This document shows positions 8,631 to 14,149 of a stretch of DNA of 58,323 nt, in pieces (position 1 is the stretch's first letter; each line of letters opens with the position of its first letter). Location: positions 1 to 58,323 of the forward strand of contig CALIVT010000028.1 in assembly GCA_938048185.1 (NCBI GenBank), given 5' to 3'. Source of the DNA: an uncultured Arenicella sp. (GTDB lineage: Bacteria; Pseudomonadota; Gammaproteobacteria; Arenicellales; Arenicellaceae). A program made the translations under genes and the position numbers. The notes beneath the pieces are model-generated. The model searched no databases and was not told the origin of the DNA. It saw only the letters and a list, made by a program, of their open reading frames with translations.

Positions 8631-10568
8631 ATGGCAGCTGACCGTATAGAGTTAAAAGATTATCTGCGTGAAACCAACCTGATTCACAGTCGTCTAATCG
8701 CCTTAGTTGTTTTACTGTGCGTGTTGACGTTTATCTTGGTGGCTCGTGTTTGGTATTTGCAAATTTATAATAATGAGCGTTTCGAAGTGTTGTCTAAAGA
8801 CAACCGCGTTCGTCTAGTGCCAATGCCACCTGTGCGTGGGCAGATTTTTGATCGCAACGGCAAGGTTCTAGCTGAGAATATTCCTGTTTTCACACTCGAA
8901 ATATTACCCAAGGATGTTGAAAATATGGACGCGTTACTCGATGAGGTTACGCGGATTATTGAGGTGTCACCTAACGACGTAAAGAAGTTTAAAGCTTTAG
9001 TGAAATCTCATCGCGGTTTCGAAGCGCAAGTATTGAAGGTGAATTTGAGTGAGGAGGAGGTTGCCCGATTTTCTGTCAACCAACACCGCTTTCGAGGTGC
9101 GCAAGTGCAGGCGCGATTGCAACGCAACTACCCATATGGCGGCGAGATGGCACATGTTCTGGGTTACGTTGGGCGTATTAATCAACGCGACAAAGAAAGT
9201 ATTGATGCGAAAGCTTATAAAGGTACGGACTACATCGGCAAGCGCGGTATTGAAGCACGCTATGAAGACCAATTACTTGGTCGAGTCGGCGTTGAGCAGG
9301 TTGAAACCAATGCTCATGGACAGCGTATTCGTCGCTTAGATAAAAATGAACCCGTGTCTGGCGATAATATTTATCTAAATATCGACGCTGATTTACAAGT
9401 CAAGGCGCGCGAATACTTAGGCGATCGACGCGGTTCGGTCATTGCCATTGAGCCTGAGAGCGGGGAGGTGTTAGCCTTTGTTAGTAACCCGGTTTATGAT
9501 CCCAATAAATTCGTAAATGGTATCGATCATCGTTCATATAACGCTCTGCGGGAAGACGTTAATCGACCGTTGTTAAATCGCACTATTAGCGGCCGATACG
9601 CACCGGGCTCAACGATTAAAGGTTTAGTTTCGCTTGCCGCGTTAGAAAACGGTTGGAGCGAAAATAAACACATTACTTGCCCCGGCTATTTTACGTTAAA
9701 GGGCAGCAGTCATCGTTATCGTTGCTGGCGTCGAGGCGGTCACGGTTCGACTTCGATGCTTAAATCAATCATGCAGTCCTGCGACGTATATTATTATCAG
9801 CTGGCCAACACGATTGGCATCGACAAGCTCTCGGCCTTTCTTAAAACGTTTGGTTTGGGCTCTCAGACGGGCATTGATTTAGACGGCGAACCGTCCGGCT
9901 TAGTACCATCGCGCGAGTGGAAGCGTGAGCGACGAGGGGTTGCTTGGTATCCCGGTGACACGCTTAATACCGGGATTGGACAAGGTGATGTGTTGGTTAC
10001 ACCACTACAGTTGGGAGTGATCTCAGCGACCCTAGCCAACCGCGGGCGGCGCATAGAGCCGCGCTTAGTGGGTCGACTTGAGCACAGCGCGAATGGCGGC
10101 AGTGATAAAGCGGTGACGACATTGGTTGGTGCGGAGTTAGGTACGGTAGTTGCTAAACCCCGAAATTTTGACGCTATTATCGATGCGATGGAAGCTGTTG
10201 TTGGGCACCCTAGAGGAACGGCGCATAACTCTGCAGGTAAAAATGTGGGCTATACCATGGCGGGTAAAACCGGTACCGCGCAGGTAGTGGCAATCCCGCA
10301 AGGCGCGCGATATGACGCGAGTAAGTTAAATGATTTTCAAAAAGATCATGCGTTATTTGTCGCATTTGCCCCGGTAGAGAAACCCAAAATCGCAATTGCG
10401 GTTATTGTTGAAAATGGCGGCAGCGGCAGCAGCGCCGCGGCGCCGGTGGCACGTAAAGTAGCGGATTTTTATTTATTAAATAAAGACGCTAACGCGGCTG
10501 AGCCGGTTCTGCCAGAGAGTGGTCAAGAACCGTCGCCTGAACCGCTTGCCAGTGTGCTGAGTCAATAA
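8631..10568 (+). CDS. mrdA: Penicillin-binding protein 2 (elongasome transpeptidase)
   Basis: Class B PBP that crosslinks peptidoglycan during lateral growth, working with RodA. The 645-residue protein has a single membrane anchor (about 20-42), the class B head with R-G-x-I-x-D-R-N (VRGQIFDRNG, about 68-77), and the transpeptidase domain with S327-T-I-K330. It also has SCD in the SxN position (MQSCDVYYYQ) and K-T-G in MAGKTGTAQ. The Ser-Cys-Asp in place of Ser-x-Asn is the form also found in other PBP2 proteins. The Pro/Glu-rich C-terminal tail (about 620-645) lies outside the catalytic domain. It overlaps rodA by one base. Confidence 0.97.
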   Translation: MAADRIELKDYLRETNLIHSRLIALVVLLCVLTFILVARVWYLQIYNNERFEVLSKDNRVRLVPMPPVRGQIFDRNGKVLAENIPVFTLEILPKDVENMDALLDEVTRIIEVSPNDVKKFKALVKSHRGFEAQVLKVNLSEEEVARFSVNQHRFRGAQVQARLQRNYPYGGEMAHVLGYVGRINQRDKESIDAKAYKGTDYIGKRGIEARYEDQLLGRVGVEQVETNAHGQRIRRLDKNEPVSGDNIYLNIDADLQVKAREYLGDRRGSVIAIEPESGEVLAFVSNPVYDPNKFVNGIDHRSYNALREDVNRPLLNRTISGRYAPGSTIKGLVSLAALENGWSENKHITCPGYFTLKGSSHRYRCWRRGGHGSTSMLKSIMQSCDVYYYQLANTIGIDKLSAFLKTFGLGSQTGIDLDGEPSGLVPSREWKRERRGVAWYPGDTLNTGIGQGDVLVTPLQLGVISATLANRGRRIEPRLVGRLEHSANGGSDKAVTTLVGAELGTVVAKPRNFDAIIDAMEAVVGHPRGTAHNSAGKNVGYTMAGKTGTAQVVAIPQGARYDASKLNDFQKDHALFVAFAPVEKPKIAIAVIVENGGSGSSAAAPVARKVADFYLLNKDANAAEPVLPESGQEPSPEPLASVLSQ

Positions 10569-11647
10569 TGCCGTTCCGTATCAAAGTAGACATGCCGTTA
10601 ATGTTTGGCTTGTTAATGCTGTGCGTTGGCAGTTTACTGGTGCTTTGGAGTGCCGGTGGCGAGAGCCCGAGACTTCTTATTAGCCAATCTATTCGCATGG
10701 GCATCGCAGTTGTCGGTATGGTTGTGCTGGCACAGGTGCGACCTGACACCTTGTTTCGCTGGACGCCCTATTTGTTTGCGGCGGGTTTGGGTATGCTGAT
10801 TTTAGTGCTGTTGGTCGGCGATGTAGGCAAGGGTGCGCAACGCTGGCTCGATCTAGGGGTAGTCAGATTTCAGCCTTCTGAAGCGATGAAGTTAGCCGTG
10901 CCAATGATGGTTGCCTGGGTTTTGACGCGTAAGACTCTACCGCCGAACTTCAAAAATCTGTTCTATGCGGCGTTGGTTCTTGGCGTGCCATCGGCTTTAA
11001 TTCTGGTGCAGCCCGATTTAGGTACGGCGATTTTGATTTTGATGTCAGGCGCACTCATTATTTTTCTTGCGGGTTTCGCGTGGAAGCATATTGGTATTTT
11101 AGCAGCAATGACCGCCGCGGCGATTCCGATTGCCTATCATTTTTTACTGCGACCCTATCAGCAGCAACGCATTCAGACTTTGTTAGATCCGTGGTCAGAC
11201 CCACTTGGTTCGGGTTACCAAATTATTCAATCTATGATTGCGATTGGCAGTGGCGGGGCGCAAGGCAAAGGTTGGACGCAAGGTAGCCAGTCGCAACTCG
11301 AGTTTATTCCTGACCGACACACTGATTTTATCTTCTCGGTGTTTTCAGAAGAAATGGGCTTTATTGGTGTGCTTATTTTGATCACAGTGTACGTCGCTAT
11401 TGTTGCGCGCGGCCTTTATATTGCCTACTACACCAAAGATACGTTTTCACGCTTGCTCGCAGGCAGTTTATCGATGACGTTTTTCTTTTATGTGTTTGTG
11501 AATATCGGCATGGTTGCCGGTATGCTCCCAGTCGTTGGGATTCCTTTGCCGCTGATCAGTTATGGCGGCACTTCTATGGTGACTCTGATGGCCGGCTTTG
11601 GTATCTTGATGGGCATTCATAATCACCGTAGTTTGATGTCTCGATAA
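10568..11647 (+). CDS. mrdB: Peptidoglycan glycosyltransferase RodA
   Basis: SEDS-family polymerase that builds glycan strands from lipid II in the elongasome. The 359-residue protein has about ten membrane spans. SEDS motifs are visible: VQPDLGTAILI (about 143-153), QGKGWTQGSQSQLEFIPDRHTDFIFSV with the catalytic-loop region (about 234-260), and GIPLPLISYGGTSM (about 323-336). The start ATG overlaps the mrdA TAA, as in many mrdAB operons. Confidence 0.96.
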   Translation: MPFRIKVDMPLMFGLLMLCVGSLLVLWSAGGESPRLLISQSIRMGIAVVGMVVLAQVRPDTLFRWTPYLFAAGLGMLILVLLVGDVGKGAQRWLDLGVVRFQPSEAMKLAVPMMVAWVLTRKTLPPNFKNLFYAALVLGVPSALILVQPDLGTAILILMSGALIIFLAGFAWKHIGILAAMTAAAIPIAYHFLLRPYQQQRIQTLLDPWSDPLGSGYQIIQSMIAIGSGGAQGKGWTQGSQSQLEFIPDRHTDFIFSVFSEEMGFIGVLILITVYVAIVARGLYIAYYTKDTFSRLLAGSLSMTFFFYVFVNIGMVAGMLPVVGIPLPLISYGGTSMVTLMAGFGILMGIHNHRSLMSR

Positions 11648-11700
11648 CTCTTTGACCCTTTCAATCATCTTTTCCTATGCGAATAACCGAGAAAACTCCC

Positions 11701-12972
11701 ATGCTGAAGACCATCACCTTAGCCTTATCTTGTCTACTAGCAGGTCTGATGGTTTGCACTCATGCGCAAGCGATTGAATTGTCCAAAGAGCCTAAGTTGC
11801 AGGCGATTGCCGATCAATTGATTGCCGAAAAACATTATACCCAGGCTGAGCTCGATCGCATTTTTAGCCAGGCTGACATCCAACAATCAGTGCTCGACGC
11901 TATGCAAAACCCGGCCGAGTATAAATTTACCTGGGGTAAGTATCGTAAGATATTTTTGCAGGATGACCGTATTCAGCAAGGCGTAGACTTCTGGTTGGCG
12001 CACCAAGCCGTCTTAGAAGCCGCCGAGCAGGAATACGGTGTACCAATAAGTGTGATTGTTGCGATTATTGGTGTCGAGTCGAAGTTTGGAAAGTATAAAG
12101 GTAAGCACAAAGTTCTAGATAGCTTGAGCACATTGGTTGTTGGTTTTCCGCGACGCAGCAAATTTTTTGCTAAAGAACTTAAAGAGTTTCTTATTCTGAC
12201 CAAAGAGAATGAGCTTCAAGCGCCTGAAATATTAGGTTCATACGCAGGGGCTGTGGGCTTTCCTCAGTTTATTTCCAGCAGCTATCGAAACTACGCCGTT
12301 GACTATTCTGGTGACGGTAAAACTGATTTAATCAATCAACCTAGCGACGCGATTGGCAGTATCGCCAATTACTTCATTAAGAACGGGTGGAAGCCGGGTG
12401 AGCCAGTGACCTCGGTTGCCTACACGACGGTTGAGGGCTCGATCGCCGCGCTCGCTAACCGCAAGCGCAAGACTTTATACACCGCACAGTCGTTACGCGA
12501 TAAGGGCGCACCGTTGAGCCTTAGCATTCAAGATGATGAAAAATTGAATGTATTGATGCTTGATGCCAACGAGGTCGTTACCGAACCCAAGGGCAGCAAT
12601 CGCTATGTCGTACGTGCGGGTGATACCGCGTGCCAAATTGCCGAAGACTCGAATGTGTCATGCGCCGCGCTTATTAAACTGAATAACTTGGATAGCAAAG
12701 GGCGCATCTACCGTGGCCAGCGCCTGAAGTTGCCCACATCTGAGTTTGCAGTGGCTAAAGATTCCAAGTCTAAACTTGCGTCAACAGGCACCAGTAAGTG
12801 GCAGGTGGCAAGTTCTGATTCGGGCGCAATTGAAGAGGATACTGTGCAAGAGCGATACTTTTTCACACACCGTAATTTTTATGCGATTACGCAATACAAT
12901 CACAGTGTTCTATACGCCATGGCAGTACATGATCTGAGCCAAGCGATTGCTCAAGCCAAACGTGCACGCTAA
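11701..12972 (+). CDS. mltB: MltB-type lytic transglycosylase with inserted LysM domain
   Basis: Cleaves the MurNAc-GlcNAc bond to form 1,6-anhydroMurNAc. I chose ATG 11701 because it starts directly at a signal peptide (MLKTITLALS...HAQA). An in-frame ATG at 11677 would add eight residues. The catalytic glutamate lies in IIGVESKFG (Glu126). The downstream GSYAGAVGFPQFISSSYRNYAVDYSGDGKTDL block is typical of MltB. Between VLMLDA (about 284-289) and the family's terminal YFFTHRNFYAITQYNHSVLYAMAV block (about 386-409) lies an extra 90-residue segment. It holds a LysM-like module (YVVRAGDTACQIAEDS...RGQRLKLP, about 302-345) and a Ser/Lys linker. The LysM is therefore inside the MltB fold rather than appended. 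The usual neighbour rlpA is absent. Confidence 0.9.
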   Translation: MLKTITLALSCLLAGLMVCTHAQAIELSKEPKLQAIADQLIAEKHYTQAELDRIFSQADIQQSVLDAMQNPAEYKFTWGKYRKIFLQDDRIQQGVDFWLAHQAVLEAAEQEYGVPISVIVAIIGVESKFGKYKGKHKVLDSLSTLVVGFPRRSKFFAKELKEFLILTKENELQAPEILGSYAGAVGFPQFISSSYRNYAVDYSGDGKTDLINQPSDAIGSIANYFIKNGWKPGEPVTSVAYTTVEGSIAALANRKRKTLYTAQSLRDKGAPLSLSIQDDEKLNVLMLDANEVVTEPKGSNRYVVRAGDTACQIAEDSNVSCAALIKLNNLDSKGRIYRGQRLKLPTSEFAVAKDSKSKLASTGTSKWQVASSDSGAIEEDTVQERYFFTHRNFYAITQYNHSVLYAMAVHDLSQAIAQAKRAR

Positions 12973-13009
12973 TTGATAGACAATAGATAAACCGAGTTCG
13001 ATACCCTAC

Positions 13010-14149
13010 ATGAGAGTTTCCCCCCTTTTACTGATTATAATAGTTACGCTCTACAGCCCCTTAGGCGTTAGTCAAACCAAGCCTGAGATCGACGCAAAAG
13101 CGTGGGTGTTGATGGAGATGAATAGTGGAGAAATTCTCACCAGTAAGAACCCAGATTTAACTCTACATCCAGCCAGCATCACTAAGTTGATGATGAATTA
13201 TGTGTTGTTTGCGCGTTTAAAAGCGGGCGATGTAAGCATGTCAGATTTAGTGCCTATCAGCGAGCACGCGTGGCGCGCCGAAGGTTCACGCATGTTTGCT
13301 GACGTAAACTCACGACTCGAGCTAGGGCATTTGCTAAAGAGTACGATTATTCAGTCGGGCAATGATGCGGCCATCGCCTTAGCGGAATTCACGGGCGGTA
13401 GTGAGTTCGCTTTTGCTCAGCTAATGAACCGAGAAGCGGTGAAACTGAATTTAACGCACTCCAATTTCTTGAACAGCACCGGATTGCCGGCCGAAGGTCA
13501 TTTAATGTCGTCGGTTGATATTGCTAAGTTGGCAGCCGCGATCATTCGGGATTTTCCCGACTACTACGCGTGGTTCGCGGAGAAAGAATACACCCACAAC
13601 AACATCACCCAATATAACCGCAATAAGTTACTGTGGAAGGACAGCAGTGTGGACGGGCTTAAAACCGGGTACACCGAAGCGGCCGGCTATTGTCTTGTTG
13701 GCAGCGCAGTACGCGATAAGCAACGATGGATAGCGGTAGTGATGGGCGCTAAAAGCGTGCGCGCCCGTGAGGCCGCGGTGTTGGAGTTATTGAATTACGG
13801 TTTTAATTATTATGAGCCCAGTGAGCAATTAAATCAGCAAGGCGGTGTGACGTCAGTGCGAGTGTACGGCGGTGCGGTAGAAGAAGTGCTATTGCAAGCA
13901 CGTAAACCCGCCAATGTCGTGGTGCCGAGAGGTCGTGCCAAAGATATTGAAACCAACCTAATACATAGCCCGTATTTTGAGGCGCCGATAGAAGTGGGGC
14001 AGAGCATGGGCTTGGCACAACTTACCCTAGACGGCGAAACCATCGCCGAGGTGCCACTGGTGGCAATGAGCGAAATAAATTCAGCCGGCTGGTGGAAACG
14101 TATCGTCGATTCGATTAAGCTGCGCGCCAAACAATTTTGGGAAGAGTAA
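13010..14149 (+). CDS. dacA: D-alanyl-D-alanine carboxypeptidase (PBP5/6 type)
   Basis: Removes the terminal D-Ala from pentapeptide stems in the periplasm and so limits crosslinking. The 379-residue protein has a signal peptide (about 1-21) and the active-site motifs S56-I-T-K59, S116-G-N118 and K218-T-G220. After the catalytic domain there is a PBP5-like beta domain, and the C-terminal segment GWWKRIVDSIKLRAKQFW forms an amphipathic anchor helix. It sits between mltB and ybeD, as in pseudomonad clusters, with 8 bases to the ybeD ATG used here. Confidence 0.96.
   Translation: MRVSPLLLIIIVTLYSPLGVSQTKPEIDAKAWVLMEMNSGEILTSKNPDLTLHPASITKLMMNYVLFARLKAGDVSMSDLVPISEHAWRAEGSRMFADVNSRLELGHLLKSTIIQSGNDAAIALAEFTGGSEFAFAQLMNREAVKLNLTHSNFLNSTGLPAEGHLMSSVDIAKLAAAIIRDFPDYYAWFAEKEYTHNNITQYNRNKLLWKDSSVDGLKTGYTEAAGYCLVGSAVRDKQRWIAVVMGAKSVRAREAAVLELLNYGFNYYEPSEQLNQQGGVTSVRVYGGAVEEVLLQARKPANVVVPRGRAKDIETNLIHSPYFEAPIEVGQSMGLAQLTLDGETIAEVPLVAMSEINSAGWWKRIVDSIKLRAKQFWEE

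Follow-up and report, generated by a model that had tools for sequence, protein, structure and literature searches.

The mltB gene of an uncultured Arenicella species encodes a family 3 lytic transglycosylase whose predicted fold is interrupted by a LysM domain, a nested arrangement that recurs throughout the genus. The gene lies in a cluster of cell wall genes on contig CALIVT010000028.1 (assembly GCA_938048185.1), of which we analysed a stretch of 58,323 nucleotides, hereafter the window. We regard this LysM-bearing MltB as a real but modest, genus-wide variant of a known enzyme. Our preferred reading, to which we assign a probability of roughly 60%, is that the LysM serves to tether a soluble periplasmic MltB, itself predicted to be active, to glycan.

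The mltB open reading frame occupies positions 11677..12972 of the forward strand (431 amino acids as listed) and offers two in-frame ATG codons, at 11677 and 11701. By eye the second is probably the true start, since it opens a normal-looking signal peptide; this probable Sec signal peptide (11701..11772, + strand) ends in A-Q-A, and neither inspection by eye nor a simple pattern found a lipobox in it. The SLT_2 profile (PF13406) matches the protein in two stretches with 290.7 bits against a cut-off of 24.3, and the NCBIfam profile for MltB (TIGR02282) likewise matches in two stretches with 320.8 bits against 281.4. Sequence searches of solved structures returned SltB1 (5o8x, 4anr) and Slt35 (1ltm, 1d0k and others), with 5o8x aligning first to residues 41-293 and then to residues 394-430. 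By its sequence and its predicted structure the window gene is an MltB, a family 3 lytic transglycosylase. In each of the Arenicella-genus genomes scanned (13/13) SLT_2 is matched by a single gene, in two pieces, so the LysM-bearing gene is the MltB of the genus.

The first part of the MltB fold (residues 38-296; 11788..12564, + strand) comprises the N-terminal helices, the catalytic core, an EF-hand-like loop and the alpha/beta subdomain, and runs up to a strand at residues 289-296. Within the core, Glu134 (12076..12078, + strand) aligns with Glu162 of Slt35, the catalytic residue according to the accessible part of PMC13134497. The EF-hand-like calcium loop follows at 12301..12348 (+ strand; D209...D213...D217...D224); its residues D209, D213, G214, D217 and D224 are invariant columns of alignment A1 and make up a predicted calcium motif, an EF-hand being described as a hallmark of family 3 lytic transglycosylases in the text available from PMC12547810. 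The fold is completed by a terminal block of one strand and two helices (residues 392-431; 12850..12969, + strand), delimited from sequence and model. Tyr407, Asn408 and Tyr413 of this block align with Slt35 residues 338, 339 and 344, and Asn339 we take to be an active-site residue. Slt35 Tyr338 and Tyr344 bind substrate (PMC13134497, in the part accessible), and Asn302 of SltB2, the counterpart of Slt35 Asn339, is named in PMC12547810 (likewise in part). When the alignment was read by hand, the ten Slt35 positions named in the accessible text of PMC13134497 corresponded to Y89, F93, E134, F163, F164, Y189, F198, Y232, Y407 and Y413 of the window MltB; eight of them are conserved exactly, and the other two differ by a Tyr/Phe exchange. 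With its active-site residues conserved to this degree, the enzyme would be expected to be active.

Between the motifs LNVLMLDA and RYFF the window MltB carries 95 residues, and the 17 full-length genus members (the window gene and 16 others) carry 75-137; in the same alignment the gap is four residues in 11/11 outgroup MltBs, which include those of the sister genera G018 and G019. The original prediction of about 90 residues with a LysM-like module and a flexible linker, in place of a normally short loop, thus agrees with the count. The insert begins with a linker of 12 residues (linker 1; 12565..12600, + strand), identical in length in 17/17 genus members, and continues with the LysM domain, which profile and model place at residues 309-352 (12601..12732, + strand). 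The Pfam LysM profile (PF01476) matches residues 310-353 with 36.7 bits against a cut-off of 20.9. A second linker of 39 residues (linker 2; 12733..12849, + strand), predicted to be disordered at 361-389, leads back into the terminal block, and its length varies from 19 to 81 residues in the genus. The LysM itself forms 44 gap-free columns among the 17 members, all of which retain the cysteine pair C318 and C328, a putative disulfide. Pfam, run on 16 of the 17 genus rows (all except L013) and the 11 outgroups of alignment A3, found SLT_2 in all 27 proteins and LysM in 16. PG_binding_1 (PF01471) remained unmatched in the window MltB up to E = 1. An origin of the insert in a faulty assembly or reading frame can be ruled out, because 17 genome assemblies carry it open and in frame.

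The AlphaFold model of the window MltB (pLDDT 83.8, pTM 0.74) was computed from alignment A4 (18 rows, with the outgroup rows split); an earlier model with a pLDDT of 60.5, built from the poorer alignment A1 (nine rows, of which three outgroup rows were misaligned in the insert), was not used. In the model the strand at 289-296 is followed by LysM elements at 309-311, 318-324, 329-335 and 349-351, a low-confidence segment at 361-389, and a strand (392-397) and two helices (399-408 and 411-430) of high confidence. VIA-align 2 superposes SltB1 (5o8x_A) on model residues 32..429 over 304/304 residues (Z 36.2, rmsd 2.4) and Slt35 (1d0k_A) over 300/314 residues (Z 35.3), and the top Foldseek matches belong to the same MltB family. 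As SltB1 is superposed on both sides of the insert, the terminal NFY...YAMAV block is part of the MltB fold, as had been proposed from the sequence. Model residues 307-355 superpose on the LysM 4uz2_D over 48 aligned residues with an rmsd of 1.3 and a Z of 7.9, which for a 48-residue domain falls in the range that VIA-align 2 calls common, the LysM assignment being mainly profile-based; the LysM structures matched include 4uz3, titled 'bound to N...'. The structure prediction thus places the block in an MltB fold and the insert in a LysM fold, and neither of the outcomes that the original prediction gave as refuting it was obtained.

The position of the insert calls for a more precise description than the one it was first given. 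By residue offset (427 -> 321 in 7qvd) it maps to loop 281-285 of SltB2, and the accessible part of PMC12547810 assigns residues 227-291 of SltB2 to the alpha/beta domain and 292-323 to the third catalytic segment. The insertion site is the loop that closes the alpha/beta subdomain, and a single strand separates it from the third catalytic segment downstream; the module lies inside the MltB fold, as claimed, but outside the catalytic core itself.

The distribution of the nested LysM was surveyed with a profile (A2, 17 rows) built from the insert and the terminal block and searched against 109 genomes of the order, 369 of the class and 398 of the phylum, in total 852 distinct genomes; the family is represented by 21 genomes from three genera. 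In all 18 Arenicella-genus genomes (G000-G017) the profile matches across both LysM and block: the match is continuous in 16, broken into two pieces in G011 and truncated by a contig end in G016. The LysM is present in every full-length mltB of the genus (17/17) and in one fragment. Among the matches listed from the 834 other genomes none combines a LysM with the MltB block, and the best of them scores 68.1 bits (G090, over the LysM only), compared with 198.9-237.0 bits for the one-piece genus matches. Most of these listed matches are confined to one of the two parts, either the LysM or the terminal block; about a dozen span from the middle of the LysM into the block (for example in G250, G162 and G847), and those in G026 and G802 span from the LysM onward. 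Sixteen ambiguous or long-framed cases were measured: 14 have the block without a LysM, and two (G026 and G802) have LysMs without the block. Measured from the SxAGA motif, the terminal block lies 186-249 residues away in genus ORFs and 109-119 residues away in 65/65 other ORFs, counted over loci with both landmarks, with some genes counted twice and L100 falling outside the motif pattern. Across all loci compared, LysM and block occur together in genus ORFs only. The search for further MltB proteins with an internal LysM, envisaged in the original prediction, accordingly found them in all genus genomes and, among the matches listed, in none of the others. In the literature matches listed, from a search that covers few subscription journals, we recognised no description of such a protein.

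Many of the LysM-bearing loci compared within the order share this cysteine pair in their LysMs, including SLT-type transglycosylases and two efflux proteins. A further gene of the genus encodes a C-terminal array of three LysM repeats (L104:2193-4109 on contig C1 of the same genome, and L134-L149), each repeat of which has the MltB-type cysteine pair in 17/17 genus loci examined, the genus being represented by 18 genomes; Pfam finds an SLT transglycosylase domain in the copy of the window's own genome. In a profile search of that genome the first repeat scores 54.1 bits and the other two 34.8 and 31.6, which by score alone made the first repeat the nearest LysM there. A tree of LysM sequences (102 rows, 44 columns, with the bootstrap not settled and many forks unresolved) places the MltB LysMs with the third repeats of five genes of family f9 and four single LysMs (97/94), and two proteins with single LysMs of this kind proved to be efflux proteins. 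The MltB LysMs do not form one clean group, row L014 being placed next to the LysMs of the efflux proteins. Since the MltB LysMs stand apart from the repeats of the genus's own SLT gene, that gene is not supported as the donor, which is perhaps to be sought among the cysteine-pair LysMs of the order. The two efflux proteins (L093:1399-2976 and L151:1-1344, from family f3 of the same order) are of the outer-membrane type, with an OEP domain (PF02321) and an N-terminal cysteine-pair LysM that might attach them to the cell wall.

According to our preferred reading, an ancestral MltB would have gained a cysteine-pair LysM, a type frequent among the wall proteins of the order, in the last loop of its alpha/beta subdomain. 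The LysM would most likely bind glycan strands containing GlcNAc and, when bound, would hold MltB on the sacculus near its cutting site. Linker 1 would keep the LysM within 12 residues of the enzyme body, and the disordered linker 2 would serve as a slack return strand that lets the two strands of the enzyme close normally. We infer activity, glycan binding and tethering, together with any effect on processivity or on the choice of strand. Against a tether counts that some LysM domains are degenerate and that others may bind proteins in place of glycan.

The wording of the original prediction also allowed the module to gate the lytic site; its tethering half is plausible, its gating half is without direct support. 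A LysM placed beside the ring-like opening could restrict access, blocking long strands and rendering the enzyme more exolytic, and its position in the alpha/beta subdomain at the site of SltB2 loop 281-285, together with the constant 12-residue length of linker 1, would suit such a restrictor. The same SltB2 loop is among those with high B-factors, and the exolytic behaviour of SltB2 is considered likely to be driven by its peptidoglycan-binding domain (both PMC12547810, accessible part). By analogy with this proposal for the 3B binding module, an effect of the LysM on the product pattern is possible. However, the Pseudomonas aeruginosa enzyme SltB1, which lacks a binding domain, is also described as mainly exolytic in the available text of the same source, and linker 2, disordered and 19-81 residues long, varies fourfold in length and so implies no fixed geometry for the LysM. 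The combination of a short, constant linker 1 with a long linker 2 speaks more for a tether than for a rigid gate, which we consider possible but unlikely.

A further reading connects the insert with the gene content of the locus. The window cluster consists, all on the forward strand, of mrdA (PBP2, 8631..10568), rodA (mrdB, 10568..11647) directly upstream of mltB, mltB itself and, directly downstream, dacA (a PBP5-type carboxypeptidase, 13010..14149). RlpA is a septal transglycosylase with a SPOR domain, and in the sister genera its gene occupies the mltB-dacA interval, the order in G018 and G019 being rodA-mltB-rlpA-dacA-ybeD-lipB. In the window this interval is 37 nucleotides long (12973..13009) and no rlpA was found in it, in agreement with the reported absence of the gene from the cluster; the order rodA-mltB-dacA-ybeD-lipB is shared by nine further spanning loci of the genus (L031-L035 and L105-L108; L109 repeats L035). 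Nor was rlpA found elsewhere in the window's own genome, an assembly given as 98.2% complete, with TIGR00413 unmatched at E<=0.001 and PF03330 unmatched at E<=10. Over this genome and its relatives TIGR00413 matched in 91 of 119 genomes, 89 of them above the cut-off; the remaining two matches cover the SPOR part only (G052) or fall in two pieces (G101). Within the genus the count is 0/18, as against 91/101 for the others.

The link to rlpA that the original prediction hinted at gains from this count, but is weakened by genus g11 of another family. There rlpA is missing from 3/3 genomes (G028, G078 and G098, by elimination from the match list) and dacA directly follows mltB in all three; no LysM was seen in their MltBs (L101, L102 and L103, the one of G078 being cut by a contig end), and L101, the one of the three scanned with Pfam, is a plain SLT_2 protein. 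The loss of rlpA from the interval in g11 is apparently independent. G020, from the same family as g11, also lacks rlpA; its best MltB match (E 5.0e-7) is weak and its assembly is listed at 88% completeness, which leaves G020 of little weight for the connection. As g11 has an ordinary MltB without rlpA, a causal link between LysM and rlpA is unproven, and the gain of the one and the loss of the other are a coincidence on one branch, a single event.

That the LysM-bearing MltB took over the septal glycan cutting of RlpA, with a glycan-binding module in place of SPOR, would fit the absence of rlpA from a genus whose sister genera keep it in the operon. In Vibrio cholerae, MltD fully replaced RlpA as sole transglycosylase, as MltB did not (PMC8820737, in the part accessible), and for MltD of P. 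aeruginosa the title of 8rhf indicates two LysM domains. V. cholerae MltB, for its part, did rescue in the presence of MltG, and an RlpA lacking its SPOR domain still complemented, so that targeting is not essential in that species (PMC8820737, same part). Against such a takeover also stand the five SPOR matches among the other proteins of the window's own genome, its SLT-type transglycosylase with LysMs, the rlpA-free g11 and the fact that one branch amounts to one event; we judge it distinctly unlikely. A bolder version, in which the nesting adds a third type to the family 3 transglycosylases and the LysM, through a preference for glycan poor in peptides, directs MltB to the septum and thereby enabled the deletion of rlpA, appears about as unlikely.

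That the insert is a tolerated passenger without a binding role, as its place in a loop and its disordered linker might suggest, is very improbable: the LysM is retained in 17/17 full-length genes and the fragment, and its mean pairwise identity among the 17 members (0.70) is close to that of the N-terminal core (0.71), the corresponding values being 0.51 for the alpha/beta part, 0.80 for the terminal block and only 0.32 and 0.20 for the drifting linkers, so that the LysM sequence is probably under selection. Replacement of a lipid anchor by the LysM is rejected as an explanation of the insert, because the 11 aligned outgroup MltBs also lack a lipobox; one genus row (L014) matched the pattern, doubtfully.

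Set beside known systems, the window MltB most resembles family 3A (SltB1 of P. aeruginosa, MltB/Slt35 of Escherichia coli), its best matches in both sequence and structure, with which it has in common the fold, the catalytic Glu, the EF-hand-like loop and the active-site aromatics. MltB of E. coli is a lipoprotein, whereas the window MltB has no lipobox. Family 3 transglycosylases are sorted by the presence of a C-terminal binding domain, 3A being without a peptidoglycan-binding domain and 3B carrying PG_binding_1 (PF01471) at the C-terminus (PMC12547810, as far as its text was available). In contrast to 3A, a LysM for which glycan binding is predicted splits the fold of the window MltB, as far as sequence and model indicate. 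Like the 3B enzymes SltB2 and SltB3 it joins a family 3 catalytic unit and a putative peptidoglycan-binding module in one chain; unlike them its module is an internal LysM, PF01471 is unmatched and the chain ends with the MltB block. MltD-type SLT enzymes also combine a transglycosylase with LysM, and Pfam finds SLT and three LysMs in L104 and L087, both from the order, which have the same cysteine pair, but their catalytic family is SLT (PF01464) and their LysMs follow the catalytic domain in tandem rather than being nested within it.

The paired loss of rlpA from the same operon makes the genus a natural case in which to ask how one transglycosylase can stand in for another during cell separation. 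For the family, the nested LysM means that the loop which ends the alpha/beta subdomain of a family 3 enzyme tolerates an entire domain, and a LysM in this position may solve the same problem as the C-terminal binding domain of the 3B enzymes, by means of a different module placed inside the fold.
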